Positions 1,220 to 16,988 of a DNA stretch of 28,833 nucleotides are shown piece after piece. The number at the start of each line of letters is the position of its first letter. Position 1 is the stretch's first letter. Origin of the DNA: a virus. The stretch lies in the IMG/VR virus record IMGVR_UViG_3300020469_000187, positions 1 through 28,833 of that record; one strand, given 5' to 3'. The notes below the pieces were generated by a model that ran no database searches, was not told the DNA's origin, and saw nothing but the letters and a program-made list of their open reading frames with translations. Position numbers and translations under genes: made by a program.

Positions 1220-2035
1220 TTACCCCATTAAGTCCATGACTGGCATTTCAAAGTTCAGTCTAGACTCTTCTTCTAATTTTGTAATTTCTTCTTGTGCTTC
1301 TTGTTTCATTGCAGAACCATCGAGTGTCACCCCGCCTGGAAGTGCAATACCTTGGAACTTGGATAGGTTTTCACCCCATTGATACTTAACTAATGCAGTT
1401 GCATATTTTTTCAACCACATATCATTGTAGATATCAGTCATGTCTGTAGGGTCTAATTTTCTATAACATTCAATAATGATATACTCTCCAGCACTTAATT
1501 TACTTGCACTGTAGTCCATGTAGAGTCTGTTAGAGTGCATATTATATCTTATAGGTATCTGACCCACTAAGATATCATTTAAAAGTGATAAGTGTGATTG
1601 AACTTGTGAATAATATAAAACACTGGTTGAAGTTAAATCATACAAGTCATTAAGTCTTAATTGGTATTGAATATCAAACATACTTGAAGTCTGACCCGAA
1701 TTGAAAGGGAATATCTGCAATACACTTAACACATGTTCGGGTAGTGTAATGTAGTTTTGACCTTCACCAAACGTCTGACCTGAAATTGCATGTGTTCCAC
1801 TTGTCGCTGCATTGTGAGTTTCATTCGTTTTAAATGAATCAATCTCTTGTTGTGTAATTTGGTGTTTAAGGTATGTTTTTATAGAACCATCGTAATGATA
1901 TTCACGGAAATATTGAAGTGCCTCGTCCATTCTGTCATCAAATTGGTCATCGTCCACATTGATTTCTAAAACTGGAGCTCCAAGTTTTCTCTTTATATAC
2001 TCTTTAAAGGTTGCTTTTGAATTTGGTTCTGCCAT
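1220..2035 (-). CDS. 13: Neck protein gp13
   Basis: A 271-residue protein of the T4-like gp13 family. In T4, gp13 binds the portal vertex together with gp14 and lets the tail attach to the filled head. The start MAEPNSKATFKEYIKRKLG followed by APVLEINVDDDQFDDRMDEALQYF is the hallmark N-terminus of this family in marine T4-like phages. Further family-like stretches are YITLPEHVLSVLQIFPF, NRLYMDY, EYIIIECYRKLDP and DMWLKKYATALVKYQWGENL. The start is preceded by AGGA about 8 nt before the ATG. A perfect late promoter (TATAAATA on the minus strand) lies 21 nt upstream at 2057-2064. It is the first gene of a gp13-gp14-gp15 operon. Confidence 0.95.
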   Translation of the reverse strand: MAEPNSKATFKEYIKRKLGAPVLEINVDDDQFDDRMDEALQYFREYHYDGSIKTYLKHQITQQEIDSFKTNETHNAATSGTHAISGQTFGEGQNYITLPEHVLSVLQIFPFNSGQTSSMFDIQYQLRLNDLYDLTSTSVLYYSQVQSHLSLLNDILVGQIPIRYNMHSNRLYMDYSASKLSAGEYIIIECYRKLDPTDMTDIYNDMWLKKYATALVKYQWGENLSKFQGIALPGGVTLDGSAMKQEAQEEITKLEEESRLNFEMPVMDLMG

Positions 2036-2070: not shown

Positions 2071-2331
2071 TTAATCTTGGAAATAGGTTTTACTTTGAAG
2101 TCTGTCTATCTTTGTATCTATATTACTAATTGAATCCATAATTCTTTGAAAGTCAGCTTCAATTTGTTCTCTAGTAGCATAATCCCTAGCAATCTCTTCT
2201 CTTGTTTTATTGATTAGAATATCAATTCGTTTTTGTTCTGATAGAACATTTCTAACTAAGAAACCTATGGGTAGGATAACAACTGTCATTACGACATTCC
2301 ATAAGATATAAGGTGATACGACTATTTCCAT
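2071..2331 (-). CDS. Small membrane-anchored coiled-coil protein, unknown function
   Basis: An 86-residue protein. Residues about 5-28 (SPYILWNVVMTVVILPIGFL) form one hydrophobic segment, followed by a charged, probably helical and coiled-coil tail with REEIARDYATREQIEADF and NIDTKIDRLQ. The layout is an N-terminal anchor with the tail in cytoplasm or periplasm. Similar short proteins occur in marine T4-like phages, but I know no assigned role; a lysis accessory protein (holin-like or inner spanin-like) is possible, though no spanin partner or lipobox is visible nearby. There is no Shine-Dalgarno before the ATG. A late-promoter-like GATAAATA ends 5 nt before the ATG, so its mRNA may be leaderless. 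Confidence 0.7.
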   Translation of the reverse strand: MEIVVSPYILWNVVMTVVILPIGFLVRNVLSEQKRIDILINKTREEIARDYATREQIEADFQRIMDSISNIDTKIDRLQSKTYFQD

Positions 2332-2348: not shown

Positions 2349-3056
2349 CTACTCGTCTGTAGTGGTTTGGTTTTGTATTAGTTTTCCATTTTCATCAGTA
2401 TGAAAAGTAAGTTCATCAGGGTGGAACCCTTGCAACTGAGAATGTCTTGCATTGTCTGAAAGGAAATTCATATTCATATTGAATGATATACTATATCTAT
2501 CTTTTTGAGTAAGATTGGGTTCAACCATATGCATTAATGCACTTGGAAATAGAAATAAATGACCAGTTCTTGGTGCAAGTTTCCAGTTCTGTGCATCTCT
2601 AGGAGAATATGGAAAGTCTGAAACTACTTTACAGTCTGTATCAATAGCCATAAAATTACCTTCATCACCATCTGCTTTTATATAAAACACACCACTATAC
2701 CAACAACCATTATGTAAGTGTGGTGCATTCCATGCTGTATTATCATTAATGTTTGCCCATGCATTACCTATTGATAATTGAAGTTCTGTTGGACTGTGTC
2801 CTGTATAACTCAATAATTCAGTATCAAAAGTATTCTTAATTGTTCTTATTGCTTTAGAGAAGGTTGGATTTCTTTCTACACCATCATTAGACTGCCAACC
2901 AGTATACTGATTAGAGACTTGTCTACCCTTCGGGTCTTTCTTTCTCATACTATCCATAGTATTTGCTAACATATCCATATAATCTTGTGTTAATACACCT
3001 TCGTCTACAAGGTTTCTTTCAATACATGCATATGGAAATAGTAATCTAATCGCCAT
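2349..3056 (-). CDS. 2OG-Fe(II) oxygenase, TIGR02466-like
   Basis: A 235-residue member of the 2-oxoglutarate and Fe(II)-dependent dioxygenase superfamily. These enzymes hydroxylate a substrate while converting 2-oxoglutarate to succinate. The double-stranded beta-helix core is visible: NAPHLHNGCWYSGVFYIKA (about residues 110-128, with H113 and H115), TGHLFLFPSALMHMVEPN (164-181, distal iron ligand H176) and RYSISFNMN (187-195, R187 as the likely 2-oxoglutarate anchor). This H.H, FPS..H.V.PN, R.SISFN pattern fits the TIGR02466 type common in marine T4-like phages. The substrate is not evident. The start overlaps the end of the preceding gene by 11 nt, and a second oxygenase lies one gene upstream, so the three are coupled. 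Confidence 0.85.
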   Translation of the reverse strand: MAIRLLFPYACIERNLVDEGVLTQDYMDMLANTMDSMRKKDPKGRQVSNQYTGWQSNDGVERNPTFSKAIRTIKNTFDTELLSYTGHSPTELQLSIGNAWANINDNTAWNAPHLHNGCWYSGVFYIKADGDEGNFMAIDTDCKVVSDFPYSPRDAQNWKLAPRTGHLFLFPSALMHMVEPNLTQKDRYSISFNMNMNFLSDNARHSQLQGFHPDELTFHTDENGKLIQNQTTTDE

Positions 3057-3948
3057 CTTTATCTCCTATAGGTAATTCTAGTTGTATTTCGGGTGAGTCT
3101 TCACTGACATGATAAGGACACTCGGGTGGTGGACTCTCTTCTTTAAAGTTTTTACCCTTACCTGTATGTAGTTTCCCACCTCTATATCCACCTAATGCAA
3201 ATTCTTCACTTCTTGCTTCATTAGAAGTTGCTGGGTCTCTTGAAAACTCGTCCATAGTTTTTTGACGACCTTCATTTGCAGTTAGATAACTTCTATTCTT
3301 TGTCCAGTCTTCACTTCCGTTTACTACGTAAGTTGCATTCCATTCCTCTCTTTTAAATGGTATTACTTGAACTAAAGGAGTTCCTTTCTTTATAACAAAC
3401 GAATGACTGACACGTGGATAAAATATAATTTGTGCATTGTCATAGTTTGCATTAAATTTATCCGTGTCAATAATTCCCTGCCATGTTGCAAAGTATTTAT
3501 TTTGAAATAAAAATGGGTCTAGATACATAGTGGAATATCCAGGCGGTGTAGTTATGTTCCATGCATTTCTAAACTTAAATGCACTCCTTACGGGTGCTTC
3601 ATCATCAGGAAGATATTGAAATGCATATCCCATCTGCCATGAGGGGTGATGAGGAGAAGGAGTTTCCCAACCATCTCCAAATTCTTGTGAACCAACATAT
3701 TGACTGTCATCATTATCATCTATGTGACCATTTTTTACAATCATATCTCGATTTGCACACAAATACCAACCACTTTTTAACCAATCGTCCATGGCTGGAC
3801 ATGCACGTATAGTAGTTCCCATGATTCCACGAGTATATTCATTGAACTTCATATTTTTCCACCAATCGGGTGTGACAGATTTTGCTAATACAGGTTTAGT
3901 GTCTCTTAAAGTCTGTTCATTAAATGTGTTGAATTCTATTGTGGGCAT
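3046..3948 (-). CDS. DUF6065-like protein between two oxygenases
   Basis: A 300-residue protein that I recognise only as a recurring phage type resembling DUF6065. Visible landmarks are SVTPDWWKNM (residues 25-34), IRACPAMDDWLKSGWYL (47-63), TPPGYSTMYLDPF, WQGIIDTDKF, IIFYPRVSHSFVIKKGTPL and VQVIPFKREEW. The PGYS, DTD and IKKGTPL.QVIPF pattern suggests a jelly-roll (cupin-like) beta fold, but I see no clear iron-binding HxD pair. The C-terminal 50 residues are rich in charge, Pro and Gly and look disordered. Its two ends overlap the flanking oxygenase genes by 11 and 13 nt, which implies coupled translation and a shared task. Function is unknown. Confidence 0.75.
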   Translation of the reverse strand: MPTIEFNTFNEQTLRDTKPVLAKSVTPDWWKNMKFNEYTRGIMGTTIRACPAMDDWLKSGWYLCANRDMIVKNGHIDDNDDSQYVGSQEFGDGWETPSPHHPSWQMGYAFQYLPDDEAPVRSAFKFRNAWNITTPPGYSTMYLDPFLFQNKYFATWQGIIDTDKFNANYDNAQIIFYPRVSHSFVIKKGTPLVQVIPFKREEWNATYVVNGSEDWTKNRSYLTANEGRQKTMDEFSRDPATSNEARSEEFALGGYRGGKLHTGKGKNFKEESPPPECPYHVSEDSPEIQLELPIGDKDGD

Positions 3949-4673
3949 TGTTTAAACCATTCCTTATCTTCTACAAGTCTAATTTCATCACCTCTGATTA
4001 CTATTGACTTCCTATCTATATATCGTGCTTCATGTGTGGGTGCATCTGCACCATGTGGTATTCTTCCGTCAAATACAACAAGTCTATTTGGAACAAATTC
4101 TATTTCTGCAATTTGGTGGTTCTTAATATGGTCGTTCCTTCCATGTAAACCCTGTTGCATTTCGTCATATATTCTCAAAGGGCCTCCCCAATGTTTTGAC
4201 CAAAACGTATTAGTGTAATACAGAAATGATAGATTCCATTCATCTTCATCTGAACAATCTGAGTGTGTTGTTCCATGTAATCCTTGTGTCTGAGAGTTTA
4301 AACCCATATATTGAAATCTTTCCCATGCAAAACCAAAATCAGTTTGTAGTTTTTTATCTAAAAATCTTGCTACTAGTTTGGGTGCAGAATTGTGATAATC
4401 TGCAATGTCACCTGCGAAATTAGGATATGTATATTTTGGACTTCTTTCAAGTGCAGAGAGTAGTGTTCCACCCCAAAATTGATGATGTGATAAACCTGTA
4501 GGACTTGTCCCTCTTACCTCATTCCTTTTCGCCCAAATGTTAGAATTACCAATTGATTTATCGACCCAATGATGTAGTTGGACTGGCAACCAATTATCAA
4601 TTATGTGAATGTCTTTAAGGGGGAATCCTATATCTTTTAACTTAAAGGACTCATCATGATAAATGAGTTCCAT
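3936..4673 (-). CDS. Prolyl-4-hydroxylase-like 2OG-Fe(II) oxygenase
   Basis: A 245-residue 2OG-Fe(II) dioxygenase of the prolyl-hydroxylase-like class. Iron ligands are visible as GTTHSDCSDEDEWNLSFLYY (H137 and D139, the HxD motif) and VVFDGRIPHGADAP (distal H207). R217 or R221 in ARYIDRKSIVIRG is the likely 2-oxoglutarate anchor. HWGGPLRIYD (161-170) is the GG.L strand between the ligand motifs, as in P4H-like enzymes. The predicted reaction is hydroxylation of a protein side chain or small molecule; the substrate cannot be read from sequence. The gene is 3 nt from its upstream neighbour and overlaps the DUF6065-like gene by 13 nt. It differs from the other oxygenase in this window in core motifs, so the two are not a recent duplication. 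Confidence 0.87.
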   Translation of the reverse strand: MELIYHDESFKLKDIGFPLKDIHIIDNWLPVQLHHWVDKSIGNSNIWAKRNEVRGTSPTGLSHHQFWGGTLLSALERSPKYTYPNFAGDIADYHNSAPKLVARFLDKKLQTDFGFAWERFQYMGLNSQTQGLHGTTHSDCSDEDEWNLSFLYYTNTFWSKHWGGPLRIYDEMQQGLHGRNDHIKNHQIAEIEFVPNRLVVFDGRIPHGADAPTHEARYIDRKSIVIRGDEIRLVEDKEWFKQCPQ

Positions 4674-4676
4674 ACA

Positions 4677-5240
4677 TTAACCTGTTCTAGAGTCGGGAAG
4701 AACTAGTGGTTCGGGAATTACAGATAAGTATTCTTCGTATTGTTTTAGAGTATCTTCTCTTGTGGACATTATCTCTTGAGCAATCTGACTAAAACATGAG
4801 TATGCAGTATCACAATATTCTAAAACTCTTCTTGCATCTGCACGTCTAGGGTGATTTGAACCTTCTCTTCCAGCGTATGTTGCATAATATAAATCAATCA
4901 TACCATACAACTCTGAAGTTGCTTGAGTATATTGACTAATTGTATGTTCTAGTCTGTTAACATATTGTGTATTTAAGTTATATCCTAAAGGTGGTTCTGA
5001 ATTTTCTATGTATAATTCAATACTACGTTTATCTTCATCAGTTAGTGTGGATTTTTCTTGACCTTCGAAATCTATAATTTCGTCATTCCATTTTAATATT
5101 TTAACTTCAATATCATCATAGACAAGAACCTCATAATCAAATCCTAGTTCGGGTTGGTCTACATTTTCATATTCCCATTCCAAACCATTTGGTTTTCTAA
5201 TTATTAGTTTTCCGCTTTCTGTGTAAATTAATGCATTCAT
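4677..5240 (-). CDS. Hypothetical protein, 187 residues
   Basis: I do not recognise this protein. The first 70 residues look like a small beta domain (MNALIYTESGKLIIRKPNGL, then YEVLVYDDIEVKILKWNDEI). Residues about 95-175 are helical and Tyr-rich, with YVNRLEHTISQYTQATSELY and DLYYATYAGREGSNHPRR. The tail VIPEPLVLPDSRTG is Pro-rich. There is no signal peptide or membrane segment. A strong Shine-Dalgarno (GGAGAGAGGAAC) precedes the ATG. It lies in the enzyme block between the glycosyltransferase and the oxygenase trio, with a 3 nt gap to the latter. A beta domain plus helical tail near fibre genes would suit a fibre-assembly chaperone, but that is a guess. Confidence 0.65.
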   Translation of the reverse strand: MNALIYTESGKLIIRKPNGLEWEYENVDQPELGFDYEVLVYDDIEVKILKWNDEIIDFEGQEKSTLTDEDKRSIELYIENSEPPLGYNLNTQYVNRLEHTISQYTQATSELYGMIDLYYATYAGREGSNHPRRADARRVLEYCDTAYSCFSQIAQEIMSTREDTLKQYEEYLSVIPEPLVLPDSRTG

Positions 5241-5275
5241 TTATTTGTTCCTCTCTCCATTATATAATAGAATTG

Positions 5276-6838
5276 TTATTTTTGCAAGATGTTTTTTGCT
5301 TTTATCCAATCATCTAGATTATTTATGTTGGAATAATCCATGTCTTTTACCCATGGGCCTCCCCTTGTATAGTGAATACCATGGTAATCCCATTTTTCAT
5401 CAGGGTTATCATACCCTTCGGTAAATACATACTTTTCGGGTATCGGACTAATCTTATCAGTCCATTCGAATTGGTGTAGTTGTTTTCCTGTCCATGTATT
5501 GACAGCTTCGGGTGTTAACTTTTTACAGTCTTCATGACCATTATTAAAAATCATAAGACTTGACCATAGTTTCTTAGGATAATCTATATTGACCTCACCA
5601 TTAAACTTAGTTGTATCATGTTCTATTTGTTTATACTGAATACATGCAACTGCATCATCTAAATTCAGATAATAGAATAAAGGTAGAATATTGTTTCTCC
5701 ATATGAAATCATTATCAATAAAGATACTATATCCTTCATAGTTTTCTAAATGTGGTATTAGGAATCTACTGTAAGTAAATTCAGTAGACTGATTTGCATA
5801 CTCCCTATTATAGTCGGGAAGTTTAGAAATGTCAAGGAATTTGATTTCGGGTTCCCAATGAAGTTCTTTTTGGTATTGACCCATACTTTTAGATAATGAA
5901 TTTAGTATTGAATTTTTGTTGACCTCATGTAGGTCTCCGTGATTAGAATCATATCCTATGTAAATGTTAAGGGGTTTACCTTTTGATTGAAGTGTTGCCT
6001 TTTTACTATGTGCATAAACCTCTTTTCTAAAACCCAACTCCATTAAGTCATGGTTGTATTCTAAATTTCCATTACAGAAAGTTATTGATAGACTAGGGTG
6101 ACTTACATGTTCTTTTTTATCTTCTAGTTTTTTTCTCCAAAACTCTAACACTTCGTCACAAGTCAAGGGTGGTGTATCAAAAATATCATGTATATCTGTT
6201 GCAAATATTTCAAAGTTGGGGTCTTCCAATTCTTCAAAAACTTTAGACCTAATAGAGCCTGGGTGTATTCTAAAACCAAATCTATTATCAACTTTATATG
6301 TAGTCCCTTGTATTGGGTGTCTTAAACCTTCTTCTTGAATACTCTGAATTAACCAATGTGCTTTTGCACTATGATAATACATAGAGTTTATTTGGATTTC
6401 AGACCACATATCTGATTTCTGTTCTTCTGTAAGTTCTACATAATCTCTTATATCTGCATATTCACCATCTGCAGTCTTACAATCCATTTGACCTACTTGT
6501 CTATCCTCTCTTTCTATTGCTGTATATACGTCAGGCAAAAACTTGTGATAGTGAACGGATTCTAGTCCAGCACCTTGGAAACCTAAAAAGGTTTTATTCT
6601 TTCGAAGTTCTAGTATATCACCCCATTTTATAATTTTTGTGGGTGGAATAATGTTCTCAAAAATATATTTGAATGATTTGTATGCATCTGATTCTTTATC
6701 TATATTGTAGATATCTTGGAAAACACCAATATTGTAATCTTCCTTTGCAATAAGGTCTCGGAAATCCATTTCCTTTAAGTTCCAATCTTCGGGTTTAATT
6801 TCGTTGATAACGTCTGAATAGTATTTCAAGTATTTCAT
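5276..6838 (-). CDS. Bipartite protein with C-terminal GT-A glycosyltransferase
   Basis: A 520-residue two-part protein. Residues about 288-500 look like a GT-A glycosyltransferase related to family 8: LNIYIGYDSN (290-299) as the nucleotide-binding strand, SIFIDNDFIW with the metal-binding D-N-D at 375-377, then YHGIHYTRGGPW (485-496), which matches the C-terminal H...G.PW motif of such enzymes. It probably moves a sugar from a nucleotide-sugar to a protein, glycan or nucleotide. The first 285 residues are a separate unit; LIQSIQEEGLRHPIQ (163-177) and FGFRIHPGSIRSKVF (187-201) resemble the ParB N-terminal pattern, but this is uncertain. No Shine-Dalgarno precedes the ATG, and a CCTAAATA motif lies 6 nt upstream, just past a terminator. 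It may start the operon containing the oxygenases. Confidence 0.75.
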   Translation of the reverse strand: MKYLKYYSDVINEIKPEDWNLKEMDFRDLIAKEDYNIGVFQDIYNIDKESDAYKSFKYIFENIIPPTKIIKWGDILELRKNKTFLGFQGAGLESVHYHKFLPDVYTAIEREDRQVGQMDCKTADGEYADIRDYVELTEEQKSDMWSEIQINSMYYHSAKAHWLIQSIQEEGLRHPIQGTTYKVDNRFGFRIHPGSIRSKVFEELEDPNFEIFATDIHDIFDTPPLTCDEVLEFWRKKLEDKKEHVSHPSLSITFCNGNLEYNHDLMELGFRKEVYAHSKKATLQSKGKPLNIYIGYDSNHGDLHEVNKNSILNSLSKSMGQYQKELHWEPEIKFLDISKLPDYNREYANQSTEFTYSRFLIPHLENYEGYSIFIDNDFIWRNNILPLFYYLNLDDAVACIQYKQIEHDTTKFNGEVNIDYPKKLWSSLMIFNNGHEDCKKLTPEAVNTWTGKQLHQFEWTDKISPIPEKYVFTEGYDNPDEKWDYHGIHYTRGGPWVKDMDYSNINNLDDWIKAKNILQK

Positions 6839-6857
6839 AGTATATATTTAGGACATA

Positions 6858-6886
6858 AAAAAAGGGGTCTGCAGAACCCCTTTTTT
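6858..6886 (-). terminator. Rho-independent terminator after the repeat-protein pair
   Basis: A perfect stem AAAAAAGGGGT/ACCCCTTTTTT (6858-6868 with 6876-6886) encloses a 7 nt loop CTGCAGA. Read on the minus strand it ends in a run of U after a GC-rich stem, just past the stop of the 291-residue repeat protein. The A/T arms make it look usable in both directions, but no gene converges on it. Confidence 0.85.
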
Positions 6887-6906
6887 GTTGTAATATGTTT
6901 CCAGTA

Positions 6907-7782
6907 TTAGTAGATACCTGCTTTATCATCTAAACCGCCAGGGCCGAAGACTGGAACAAATGAACCACCACCACCACCAGCTTGGAAGAAGTAAACTCCA
7001 GGCTGTCTATGGTTATATGTGAACGGATTCCTTGCTGGAACTGGTTGTCTAGCATTAGCAATATAAGGCACACGATATGTAAACGGATTCCTTGCTGGAA
7101 GTGGTTGTCTAGCATTAGCAATATATGGAACCCTATATGTAAATGGGTTTCTTGCTGGAACTGGTTGTCTTATATTCGCAGGATACCTTGCACTGTATGT
7201 GAAAGGTGACTGTTTATTACTAGGACTCTGAGCATTCGCAGGATACCTAGCATCATATGTAAATGGAGACTGTCTATTCCTTTGGTTAGGTTGTTGAGCA
7301 TTTACAGGACTTCTGTATGTAAATGGAGACCTATATTGGTATGTTGAAGGTTGTCTAGCATTACTAGGGTTCTGATAAGTGAACGGACTTCTATGTTGAT
7401 AAGTAGAAGGTTGTCTAGCATTACTAGGGTTCTGATAAGTGAACGGACTTCTATGTTGATAAGTAGAAGGTTGTCTAGCATTCGCTTGATAAGATGTCTG
7501 AGCATTCGCAATATAAGGTGTCTGTGCATTCCTAATAGAAGGATTCTGTGCATTCGCAGTATAAGGTGTTTGTGCATTTGCAATATAAGGTGTTTGTGCA
7601 TTTGCAATATAAGGATAAGGAATTTGAGTTAATTCTTGTCCTGATGCATTATTCCACCCCGAAGGTGTCTTAACATAAATTTGGTCAACTGCACTCCATG
7701 AAGAAGAACCAGTTTTGACCCATGCACCTTGAGTTGAATTCCAACCTGAAGGTGTTTTTACTTTTTGATTTCCTGTTGCCAT
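6907..7782 (-). CDS. Pro/Tyr/Gln-rich repeat protein, probable virion fibre (291 residues)
   Basis: A probable structural protein in three parts. Residues 1-53 hold two copies of a KTPSGWN motif around AWVKTGSSSWSAVDQIYVK, a type seen in phage tail proteins. Residues about 54-262 are tandem units of 8 or 6 residues, each with Pro near the start: six of the type TPYIANAQ, then QPSTYQHR + SPFTYQ + NPSNAR repeated as 20-residue blocks, then SPFTYDAR/YPANAQ and QPVPAR/NPFTYR/VPYIANAR blocks. The last 30 residues are Gly-rich (QAGGGGGSF) and end DDKAGIY. Cys is absent. A Shine-Dalgarno (AAGGAAT) precedes the ATG, and the gene follows its 233-residue paralogue by 10 nt. I know of no assigned function; a fibre, spike or adhesive surface protein fits the context. 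Confidence 0.75.
   Translation of the reverse strand: MATGNQKVKTPSGWNSTQGAWVKTGSSSWSAVDQIYVKTPSGWNNASGQELTQIPYPYIANAQTPYIANAQTPYTANAQNPSIRNAQTPYIANAQTSYQANARQPSTYQHRSPFTYQNPSNARQPSTYQHRSPFTYQNPSNARQPSTYQYRSPFTYRSPVNAQQPNQRNRQSPFTYDARYPANAQSPSNKQSPFTYSARYPANIRQPVPARNPFTYRVPYIANARQPLPARNPFTYRVPYIANARQPVPARNPFTYNHRQPGVYFFQAGGGGGSFVPVFGPGGLDDKAGIY
7346..7482. repeat. Perfect 60-nt tandem repeat within the 291-residue repeat protein
   Basis: Positions 7346-7422 are identical to 7406-7482, a direct repeat with a 60-nt period (77 nt of identity, about 2.3 copies). It encodes two consecutive 20-residue blocks of QPSTYQHR, SPFTYQ and NPSNAR. Identity extends over third codon positions, which points to a recent duplication. 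Confidence 0.9.
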
Positions 7783-7792
7783 ATCTTATTCC

Positions 7793-8494
7793 TTAACTAA
7801 TTGGGGTTGCAGGCCATTGTTGTGATACAACTCCGTCCCATCTAGCTTCGGGTGTTTGTCCCTGTCTTGCATATGTAGAAGGTTGTTGATTAGTATACGT
7901 TGACGGCTGTTGGTTAATATAAGTTGACGGACTTCTATGTTGATAAGTAGAAGGCTGTCTATTCTGATATGTAGAAGGCTGTTGATTAGTATACGTAAAT
8001 GGAGTCTGTCTATTCCTAATGTTAGGTTCTTGACCATTAACTGGATTTCTATACGTAAATGGTGTTTGTGCATTCCTAATATTAGGTTCTTGACCATTAA
8101 CTGGATTTCTATACGTAAATGGTGTTTGTGCATTCCTAATGTTAGGTTCTTGTGCAGAAACAGGATTTCTATACGTAAATGGAGACCTATGTGAATAAAT
8201 TATAGGTTGTCTAGCATTAGCAATATATGGAACCCTATATGTGAATGGGTTTCTATAGATTAATGGTTGTCTTGCATTAGCAATATATGGAACCCTATAT
8301 GTGAACGGACTCTGATACGTAAAAGGTTGCTGAGCATTTGCTGGATATCTTGCATTATACGTAAAAGGATTCTGATACGTAAATGGTTGTTGACCATTCG
8401 CTGGATACCTAGCCGAATACGTAAATGGACTCTGAAACGTAAAAGGTTGCTGAGCATTTGATATATAGGGATATTGTCTATAACCTGTTGCCAT
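7793..8494 (-). CDS. Pro/Tyr/Gln-rich repeat protein, probable virion fibre (233 residues)
   Basis: This protein is almost entirely repeats. After MATGYRQYPYISNAQ come seven 20-residue blocks, each made of 6-, 6- and 8-residue units in changing order: QPFTFQ/SPFTYSAR/YPANGQ twice in variants, QPFTYQ/SPFTYR/VPYIANAR twice in variants, QPIIYSHR/SPFTYR/NPVSAQ, and EPNIRNAQ/TPFTYR/NPVNGQ twice. A run of 8-residue units follows (EPNIRNRQ, TPFTYTNQ, QPSTYQNR, QPSTYQHR, SPSTYINQ, QPSTYTNQ, QPSTYARQ), then a unique tail ending SQQWPATPIS. Nearly every unit has Pro at position 2, and many have Tyr at 5. Cys and Lys are absent. A Shine-Dalgarno (GGAG) and a late promoter precede it. Function is unknown; location among fibre genes suggests a virion surface component. 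Confidence 0.75.
   Translation of the reverse strand: MATGYRQYPYISNAQQPFTFQSPFTYSARYPANGQQPFTYQNPFTYNARYPANAQQPFTYQSPFTYRVPYIANARQPLIYRNPFTYRVPYIANARQPIIYSHRSPFTYRNPVSAQEPNIRNAQTPFTYRNPVNGQEPNIRNAQTPFTYRNPVNGQEPNIRNRQTPFTYTNQQPSTYQNRQPSTYQHRSPSTYINQQPSTYTNQQPSTYARQGQTPEARWDGVVSQQWPATPIS
8022..8150. repeat. Near-identical 60-nt tandem repeat within the 233-residue repeat protein
   Basis: A 60-nt unit repeats here with few differences: the stretches around 8041-8100 and 8101-8150 match except for an A/G difference at 8081/8141 and divergence after about 8152. The preceding copy at 7981-8040 is more diverged. It encodes the EPNIRNAQ/TPFTYR/NPVNGQ blocks. Confidence 0.8.
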
Positions 8495-15362: not shown

Positions 15363-16988
15363 TTATTGTTGAGTGTTTGAAGGGTTTTTAGAGAATCTTG
15401 CAGTTGGAACTGTTTGGTGTATTTTCTCTGCAGTATTTTGGTTATTAACATACATTTCCTCTAGTTTTTCGGGTGTTGCTTGAGCACCATCTTTATTCAC
15501 ATATACTGCTTTCACCTTTGCAATAGGGCCGATACTTCTAGTTGTTGTGTATGGTGTCTGATAAATGAAAGGAGACCTATGTTGATAGGAAACCTGATAA
15601 GGTGCTTGATATATTGAAGGTTGTTGAACAATATTTTGTGTTGCAACTTGTTTATTTACAGGATTTTGATATGTAAATGGAGACCTATACTGAATTGTAA
15701 GTTGTTGTTGTGCATTTGCAATATAAGGACTTGACGCTTGTCCGTCTCCCCTTGCTTGAATCGTTGTTTGTTGATTTGCAATAACAGGGTCGTTTACCTG
15801 TTGTTGATTCTGAAACGTAAATGGTTGCTGGAATGCACCTATAGGTGTTGTAAATGCAGCCACTGGTTGTTGAGATGCAGCTATAGGACTCTGATATGCA
15901 GCTATAGGACTTCGATATGCATCTGTTGGTTGTCTATATGCAGCTATAGGACTCTGATATGTAAACGCTGCTACTGCAACTGGTTGTCTACTTGCAGCTT
16001 GTGGTTGTCTTGCTGGGTTTGGTTGTTGCAATAATTGTTGAGCATTGGCTGGATTTTGTGAGACCAATGTAATCATTGGAGACTGATATGAACCATTTTG
16101 ATATGTCGTAGGTAATTGATACGGGTAGTCTTCACCATTATATGGATTAAAATAAAAATTGGTGGTCTGTCTGTTTGCTGGATAAGCTGAAACAGGTTGT
16201 TGCGCAGACACATATGCACCTTGAACACTAGTTGCAACTGGAGTTCTTTGTTCTTGAGGATTCGCAAACTGCATGTTTCCTGCTACCTCGCCAGGAATTC
16301 CTGTAGGAGGTCTAGGGAATTCTTTAGGTTCAATGTTTGCTTGAAATACCTGATAATAATAAATTGCAGGCTGTCTATTATTAGCAAAGTTAACCGATTG
16401 GGCATTAATAATAATAGGGGCGACATTTTGATATGTAAATGGACTTCGATAAGAACTTCGGGATATAAATGGTGACTGGTCTGCAGCTATAGGACTCTGA
16501 TATGTAAATGCAGCTACTGGAACTGGTTGTCTACTTGCACCAATAGGTGTTTGAACAGCAGCTACTGGTTGTTGAACTGCAGCTACTGGTTGTCTAGAGG
16601 CATCTGTAGGACTTCGATATGCAGCTGTTGGTTGTTGAAATGCATCTACAGGTTGTCTCCCTTGGTCGATAAACGGACTACTTCTTTGATTTTGATGATT
16701 ATATATCGCAGGCTGTTGATATGTAAACGGACTTTGAAATGGATTCTGTTGTTGGTTCTGATAAGTGAACGGACTAGGTTGTCGTGCATCTTGCACCAAT
16801 AACTGACCATTAACTGGATTTCTGTATGTAGTAGGAGTCTGACTCGGACTTCTATATGTTGTCTGAGCATTTACTGATATCTGTCTAACTGCTTGCTTTA
16901 CTTCATTACTTTGAGCATTAGCAGGCACTTGACCTTGATATGGTTGTTGTAAGGTTGTTCCTATATTAATGTATATTTCGTCTGACAT
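15363..16988 (-). CDS. Large Pro/Gln/Tyr/Ala-rich repeat protein (541 residues)
   Basis: The largest of three related repeat proteins. After MSDEIYINIGTTLQQPYQGQ it uses the same SPFTYQ, NPVNGQ, QPAIY and SPYIANAQ units as the two shorter ones, plus two heptapeptide tracts: RQPVDAF QQPTAAY, RSPTDAS, RQPVAAV, QQPVAAV, QTPIGAS (about residues 111-152) and RQPTDAY, RSPIAAY, QSPIAAS, QQPVAAF, TTPIGAF (about 350-387). A less repetitive middle (about 210-270) includes FPRPPTGIPGEVAGNMQFAN. The last 65 residues lose the repeats (AKVKAVYVNKDG, PEKLEEMYVNNQNTAEKI) and look like a folded or helical end domain. Cys is absent. Only a weak Shine-Dalgarno (GAGATGAA) is visible. Role is unknown; a virion fibre or surface sheath fits its place among fibre genes. 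Confidence 0.72.
   Translation of the reverse strand: MSDEIYINIGTTLQQPYQGQVPANAQSNEVKQAVRQISVNAQTTYRSPSQTPTTYRNPVNGQLLVQDARQPSPFTYQNQQQNPFQSPFTYQQPAIYNHQNQRSSPFIDQGRQPVDAFQQPTAAYRSPTDASRQPVAAVQQPVAAVQTPIGASRQPVPVAAFTYQSPIAADQSPFISRSSYRSPFTYQNVAPIIINAQSVNFANNRQPAIYYYQVFQANIEPKEFPRPPTGIPGEVAGNMQFANPQEQRTPVATSVQGAYVSAQQPVSAYPANRQTTNFYFNPYNGEDYPYQLPTTYQNGSYQSPMITLVSQNPANAQQLLQQPNPARQPQAASRQPVAVAAFTYQSPIAAYRQPTDAYRSPIAAYQSPIAASQQPVAAFTTPIGAFQQPFTFQNQQQVNDPVIANQQTTIQARGDGQASSPYIANAQQQLTIQYRSPFTYQNPVNKQVATQNIVQQPSIYQAPYQVSYQHRSPFIYQTPYTTTRSIGPIAKVKAVYVNKDGAQATPEKLEEMYVNNQNTAEKIHQTVPTARFSKNPSNTQQ

Follow-up and report, generated by a model that had tools for sequence, protein, structure and literature searches.

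Organisation of the locus

The window, which is the whole 28,833-base stretch of a virus record analysed here, contains a neck gene, neighbouring structural genes and upstream fibre genes that mark it as part of a T4-like marine phage. The nearest cultured counterparts of the neck protein are found in the Pelagibacter phages HTVC008M and Mosig and the Methylophilales phages Melnitz, at approximately 51-52% identity. The genes of the block under study are all located on the minus strand between positions 8494 and 2349, and in the order of that strand consist of two repeat protein genes (REP1 and REP2), a hairpin terminator, and the genes of a glycosyltransferase (GT), the conserved protein U187, a P4H-like 2OG oxygenase, a DUF6065-like protein and a second 2OG oxygenase (OXY5) (Table 1). 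The repeat genes are located with tail-fibre genes, adjoining the neck gene, and the end of the block is nearly always formed by the small H86 gene, which is missing in the relative L173. A previous reading of this DNA from the sequence alone had the coordinates and the gene order correct, and the minus strand is confirmed for all of the genes. Both of the repeat proteins that it described are real, but the count was incomplete, as a third one (REP0) had been overlooked.

Table 1 Features of the repeat protein locus and its surroundings in the window.
Feature	Position	Strand	Basis
REP0, third Pro/Gln/Tyr-rich repeat protein, 541 aa	15363..16988	-	ORF, Pro spacings, repeat proteins at homologous position in relatives
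REP1, Pro/Tyr/Gln repeat protein, 233 aa	7793..8494	-	ORF, Tandem Repeats Finder, Pro spacings
REP2, Pro/Tyr/Gln repeat protein, 291 aa	6907..7782	-	ORF, Tandem Repeats Finder
Rho-independent-type terminator between REP2 and GT	6853..6885	-	Folding energy
GT, GT8/GT24-like glycosyltransferase (predicted), 520 aa	5276..6838	-	Conserved motifs, AlphaFold model, Foldseek, Pfam in relatives
U187, conserved 187-aa protein, motif GREGSxHPxR	4677..5240	-	ORF, conservation
P4H-like 2OG-Fe(II) oxygenase (PF13640; phrog_274)	3936..4673	-	Pfam, invariant iron ligands
DUF6065-like protein, dUTPase-resembling model	3046..3948	-	Halovirus relative, structure model
OXY5, second 2OG-Fe(II) oxygenase (PF13759; phrog_81)	2349..3056	-	Pfam, invariant residues
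H86, small protein with N-terminal hydrophobic stretch	2071..2331	-	ORF, relatives
T4 gp13-like neck / head-tail adaptor gene	1220..2035	-	Anchor for phylogenetic profile

The terminator postulated between REP2 and GT is borne out by folding, with the hairpin and its T-run reaching a minimum free energy of -17 kcal/mol (z = -3.6; none of 200 shuffled sequences was equally good), and was overlooked by a simple consensus scan. Of 57 distinct intergenic regions homologous to this one, 17 contain a comparable hairpin and T-run. The separation of the repeats from the enzymes by a terminator in some loci, the window included, is a point against a common fibre module.

The repeat proteins

REP1 is composed of units of six and eight residues, such as QPFTYQ and SPFTYSAR, and has the sequence RWDGVVSQQWP at its C-terminus. 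In REP2, N-terminal VKTPSGW motifs are followed by the repeats, a poly-Gly stretch and a short tail, and REP0 contains many seven-residue units. At the DNA level, Tandem Repeats Finder detects 24- and 60-nt arrays in the REP1 and REP2 genes with scores of up to 316. Neither the cultured phages nor the sequences of the PDB yielded a match to the repeat proteins, to which the low-complexity filter of BLAST may contribute. A match of REP1 to the Pfam family Cementoin (32.5 bits, above its cut-off) was judged to be compositional and was dropped.

The composition of the repeats was determined from 205 distinct repeat proteins of the relatives, including fragments cut by contig ends, using the portion before the poly-Gly stretch. 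Proline (12.9%) and glutamine (12.3%) are the most abundant, followed by threonine (9.6%), tyrosine (9.4%), alanine (9.0%), asparagine (8.9%) and arginine (8.0%), while lysine accounts for about 1% and cysteine is essentially missing. The distance from one proline to the next is even in 93% of the cases (8,504 against 644 odd), and that between successive tyrosines in 97%, compared to 46-47% in shuffled sequences; the commonest gaps are 8, 6, 10, 2 and 4, and the same even gaps still predominate once the set is thinned to 82 sequences of lower similarity. One parity is preferred by Pro, Gln, Arg, Thr and Ile, and the opposite one by Tyr, Ala and Phe. In the window, the ratio of even to odd proline gaps is 29/2 in REP1 and 32/2 in REP2, and REP0 is mixed (36/24). 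Since the Pro and Tyr spacings are even, the alternation of residues suggests β-strands rather than polyproline helices, although part of the pattern would be inherited via repeat duplication. The composition of the repeats did not differ clearly in contigs carrying an additional ATP-grasp-like gene, for which only three unique sequences were available.

These properties bear on the analogy by which the sequence-only reading had explained the block, namely that of extensins and mussel glue, in which Hyp or DOPA is formed in flexible polyproline-like repeats and Hyp-O-glycosylation follows. The high proline and tyrosine contents, the PSTYQ and PFTYQ motifs and the presence of a P4H-like oxygenase together with a glycosyltransferase are all in line with such a mechanism. 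However, Pro-Pro is almost absent from the relatives' repeat proteins (21 pairs among 9,353 prolines) and the even Pro/Tyr spacing suggests extended β-strands, so that the analogy is not supported; the low lysine content is likewise unlike that of the mussel decapeptides. An extensin- or mussel-type system therefore appears very improbable.

The enzymes of the block

The GT protein consists of an N-terminal domain (residues ~1-285) without assignment and a C-terminal GT8/GT24-like GT-A domain. Its AlphaFold model (pLDDT 88, pTM 0.89) was matched by Foldseek in the PDB to UGGT, LgtC, glycogenin and the PBCV-1 capsid glycosyltransferase, the first three with E-values of ~5e-6 to 2e-4 and a probability of 1.00; the TM-scores are modest because the glycosyltransferase domain makes up only the C-terminal half of the protein. 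Residues D375, D377, H489 and G493-W496 (H489..GGPW) are invariant across 42 GT sequences, and include the DxD motif and the downstream His motif of GT8/GT24-like enzymes. The Pfam family Glyco_transf_8 is matched by 30 of the 42 sequences at E-values up to 0.1 (best 5e-6), the GT of the window itself being without a match. By its predicted structure, the protein is thus confirmed as a GT8/GT24-like enzyme of the GT-A fold.

The P4H-like protein matches 2OG-FeII_Oxy_3 (PF13640) with 35.5 bits against a cut-off of 27, and its iron ligands H137xD139...H207 are invariant in 39 sequences. In the PDB its best sequence match is to a protein designated prolyl 4-hydroxylase subunit alpha (E 6e-4, over 55 residues), and as judged by sequence the enzyme is only P4H-like, its action on proline being putative. 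The PHROG name of phrog_274, "DNA endonuclease V", looks like a mislabel, as the same protein matches 2OG-FeII_Oxy_3. OXY5 matches 2OG-FeII_Oxy_5 (PF13759) with 67.9 bits against a cut-off of 27, has residues H113, H115, H176 and R187 invariant in 45 sequences and shows sequence similarity to two uncharacterised proteins of solved structure.

The DUF6065 model (PF19541) gave no match to the DUF6065-like protein of the window, but a halovirus relative of the protein scores 35.7 bits against a cut-off of 26.6. GxxDxD and GTxxxQ motifs are conserved. All 50 listed Foldseek matches of its structure model in the PDB are dUTPases, but the best E-value is 1.3e-3 and the model is of moderate quality (pLDDT 73); the protein may have a dUTPase-like fold. 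Among the bacterial DUF6065 genes, which served as an independent test, no non-phage locus had a neighbouring oxygenase or glycosyltransferase of the block type, and a Pfam scan of the neighbours at three loci found no oxygenase. For U187 no family was found; a likeness to tail-fibre chaperones, and a role as one, is only a guess. The previous assignment of the enzyme families is thus upheld for the GT-A glycosyltransferase and for both of the 2OG oxygenases, whereas the DUF6065-like label holds through the halovirus relative and not through the window protein itself.

The dUTPase resemblance also raises the question of nucleotide or DNA modification, in which an oxygenase would hydroxylate a base, the GT would glucosylate it and the dUTPase-like protein would act on nucleotides; base J and the glucosylation of hydroxymethylcytosine are known comparisons. 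The halovirus homologue of the DUF6065-like protein adjoins a thymidylate synthase and is close to a DNA polymerase, and one relative has a Tet_JBP match above the cut-off elsewhere in its genome. The block oxygenases, however, match PF13640/PF13661 and PF13759/PF13640, with no match to Tet_JBP in the Pfam scan, and neither thymidylate synthase (PF00303) nor a typical dUTPase was matched in five large relatives. The block furthermore sits in the tail-fibre and neck region beside repeat proteins, and the GT resembles families GT8/GT24, which include protein glycosyltransferases. DNA modification is accordingly given only a slim chance.

Conservation of the block among relatives

Related loci were gathered by searches with the P4H-like protein, the repeat proteins and the DUF6065-like protein (the latter covering the best 80 of more than 580 matches), and the counts given here are pooled from the three. 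These searches and a scan for repeat peptides all converge on one arrangement. In 135 of the 138 loci that have five or more genes upstream, the order REP-REP-GT-U187-P4H-DUF is kept exactly; in the other three, either a single ORF is inserted or a single repeat gene was left uncalled. All five genes of the enzyme block precede the neck gene in each of the 146 loci where the neck gene is far enough in. The numbers refer to loci and not to independent phages, as some of the loci are overlapping parts of a single contig and 42 non-redundant GT sequences are represented. The five genes keep their order down to ~42-47% protein identity, with repeats adjoining wherever the contig reaches, and the peptide scan, made over the viral collection with the repeat peptide RQPYIANARQP, retrieved only this kind of phage, again with the block present wherever the contig reached. 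The repeat genes and the five genes downstream of them thus behave as a single conserved unit within the tail-fibre region, and the block is all-or-none.

A survey by the neck gene was launched from a divergent first sequence to leave the clade, and covered the best 80 of more than 590 matches. At 60-70% identity (L245-L258) the block is present as far as the contig allows, with one repeat protein each in L253, L254 and L257. Among the 64 contigs at 47-54% identity (L259-L322) neither the block nor such repeats were found, and a general Pro/Tyr screen of this outgroup found none either; L290 has a single weak match to the P4H profile, at a distance from its neck gene. The survey thus crosses a sharp boundary, with the block carried by relatives from about 60% identity upwards. 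Fibre genes related to TF521 nevertheless stand directly before the neck gene in the block-less L259, L260, L263 and L266. As nearby fibre genes persist without the enzymes, it is the repeats that track them, and the joint coming and going of repeats and enzymes favours the repeats as the candidate substrate. Co-occurrence had been proposed as a check of the fibre hypothesis and independent occurrence as its refutation; the linkage proved to be strict, within a single phage clade, and the hypothesis was not refuted. Because a single clade is involved, the block was probably gained once, and the linkage may reflect this one acquisition followed by descent.

Oxygenases as such are not special to the block, since several are present per genome: the five large relatives (121-154 kb) have each ~4-8 matches to PF13640 and 4-6 to PF13759, some proteins hitting both models. 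Beside the neck gene, HTVC008M carries four oxygenases and a ferrochelatase-like gene, and Mosig four oxygenases, a haem oxygenase and a ferrochelatase, with no P/Y repeats in the neck-adjacent regions read; oxygenases are found at this place also in the outgroup contigs L276, L280, L293 and L295. The position upstream of the neck gene could therefore be a habitual home of oxygenases in marine T4-like phages, and the enzymes might modify another virion or host molecule. The sets in HTVC008M and Mosig are different, though, whereas here the same five genes recur in a fixed order with the repeats adjoining, and the occurrence of the adjacent TF521 without the enzymes indicates that this fibre gene is not a sufficient reason for them. 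A target other than the repeats seems somewhat unlikely.

Discussion

We tentatively propose that the fibre is modified by at least one of the enzymes, which would make the block a virion-fibre maturation module of a large clade of uncultured marine T4-like phages; the chance of this we place slightly short of even. Of the original fibre-modification hypothesis, the enzyme families and the strict linkage of repeats and enzymes have stood, and the extensin and mussel comparison has not. In such a module the repeat proteins would be subunits of a tail fibre or spike, and one or both of the oxygenases would hydroxylate side chains of the repeats, with Pro, Tyr, Asn and Arg all conceivable targets, either ahead of folding or while it proceeds. 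The GT could next transfer a sugar from a nucleotide-sugar donor onto the hydroxyl group, possibly with the assistance of U187 and the dUTPase-like protein, and the fibre might be stiffened, shielded or made more adhesive as a result. That all of this applies in full, with a β-structured repeat fibre both hydroxylated and glycosylated by the two oxygenases and the GT8-like enzyme of the phage, is rather unlikely, and glycosylation linked specifically to Hyp in the repeats appears improbable.

The nearest working analogy is the collagen system of mimivirus, where collagen-like proteins occur with the lysyl hydroxylase/glucosyltransferase L230 and with R699, the activity having been proven biochemically (PMC9546862). 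Both cases combine virus-encoded repetitive fibrous proteins with a 2OG hydroxylase and glycosyltransferases, and the phage block would work alike without being a member of that system: the substrate in mimivirus is collagen and its lysines, in contrast to Pro/Tyr/Gln repeats with almost no lysine, and the hydroxylases and the GT of this T4-like phage are separate proteins. The Chlorella virus PBCV-1 enzyme (PDB 2p73), which acts in glycosylation of the major capsid protein, is likewise a virus-encoded glycosyltransferase for a virion protein, but its similarity to the GT of the window is in the fold only (8% identity) and its substrate is a capsid protein and not a repeat fibre.

Marine phages very commonly carry 2OG oxygenases, and the proposals made for them in the portions of the literature available to us concern 2OG balance, DNA repair and host metabolism. 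For the cyanophage enzymes, the accessible part of one account suggests 2OG balance or DNA repair and proposes no protein substrate (PMC3037559). The cyanophage and pelagiphage 2OG-Fe(II) oxygenases belong to the same superfamilies as the block enzymes (PMC3037559, PMC11561400; phrog_274, phrog_81), and those of HTVC008M and Mosig share the neck-adjacent position, but in the block two such oxygenases are firmly tied to a GT and to repeat proteins. The block thereby offers a concrete and testable protein substrate for the 2OG oxygenases of marine phages and is a candidate case of virion-protein hydroxylation and glycosylation by a bacterial virus; if true, part of the orphan 2OG oxygenases in marine phages would gain a physiological protein substrate. 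Open-licence papers on phage prolyl hydroxylases with tail fibres, virion-protein hydroxylation and DUF6065 gave no account of such a block.

The even spacing of the repeats points to a β-structured type of fibre; sequence comparison turned up no relative of known structure for it. In many relatives, proteins of the REP2 type carry after the poly-Gly stretch and a cysteine a Hint-looking domain (CFVAGTPIL...VAHN), the match of which to the Pfam family Hom_end_hint is under the cut-off (20.3 against 32.1 bits). REP2 of the window stops shortly past the poly-Gly stretch, without this domain, and Hint cleavage at that site, if real, would give the mature REP2-type proteins alike ends.

Gene content of the block and related loci

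The oxygenase–glycosyltransferase block of some relatives holds additional genes. Read by eye, the 430-aa protein inserted between the DUF6065-like protein and the second oxygenase resembles an ATP-grasp ligase, while the shorter ORF of L170, a contig in which the repeats also differ in type, looks by its motif like a third 2OG oxygenase; neither protein has a Pfam match. The ABC transporter ATPase gene within the L146 block could be an assembly artefact; such a gene is unusual in phage.

Features of the window and of related loci
Feature	Location	Length	Remark
DUF6065-like protein	3046-3948 (-)		
P4H-like 2OG oxygenase	3936-4673 (-)		phrog_274
REP0, Pro/Gln/Tyr-rich repeat protein	15363-16988 (-)	541 aa	within tail-fibre cluster
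REP2-type proteins, likely Hint domain	L015:6618-7820; L017:6587-7807		also L042, L134, L148, others
Inserted protein, some relatives	L107:13965-15257; L164:10894-12186	430 aa	
Inserted ORF	L170:9438-10001	187 aa	
ABC transporter ATPase	L146:8115-8744		PF00005, 92.6 bits

The P4H-like protein matches 2OG-FeII_Oxy_3, and the name "DNA endonuclease V" carried by phrog_274 in PHROGs is probably a mislabel. Each of the five large relatives (G001-G005, 121-154 kb) has approximately 4-8 PF13640 and 4-6 PF13759 matches, several of them clustered well away from the block. A dUTPase fold is possible for the DUF6065-like family, of which many proteobacterial genomes also hold relatives. The block is present in two contigs (L337, L338) binned to Sphingobacteriales and Flavobacteriaceae MAGs, which weakly hints at Bacteroidota as hosts.

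In the REP2-type poly-Gly repeat proteins of many relatives, the domain that follows the poly-Gly-Cys stretch and ends in a C-terminal VAHN or LAHN is likely a Hint (hedgehog/intein) domain, with a sub-threshold Pfam match. REP0, the third repeat protein of the window, contains numerous 7-residue units, and its position is occupied by one or two repeat proteins in relatives.
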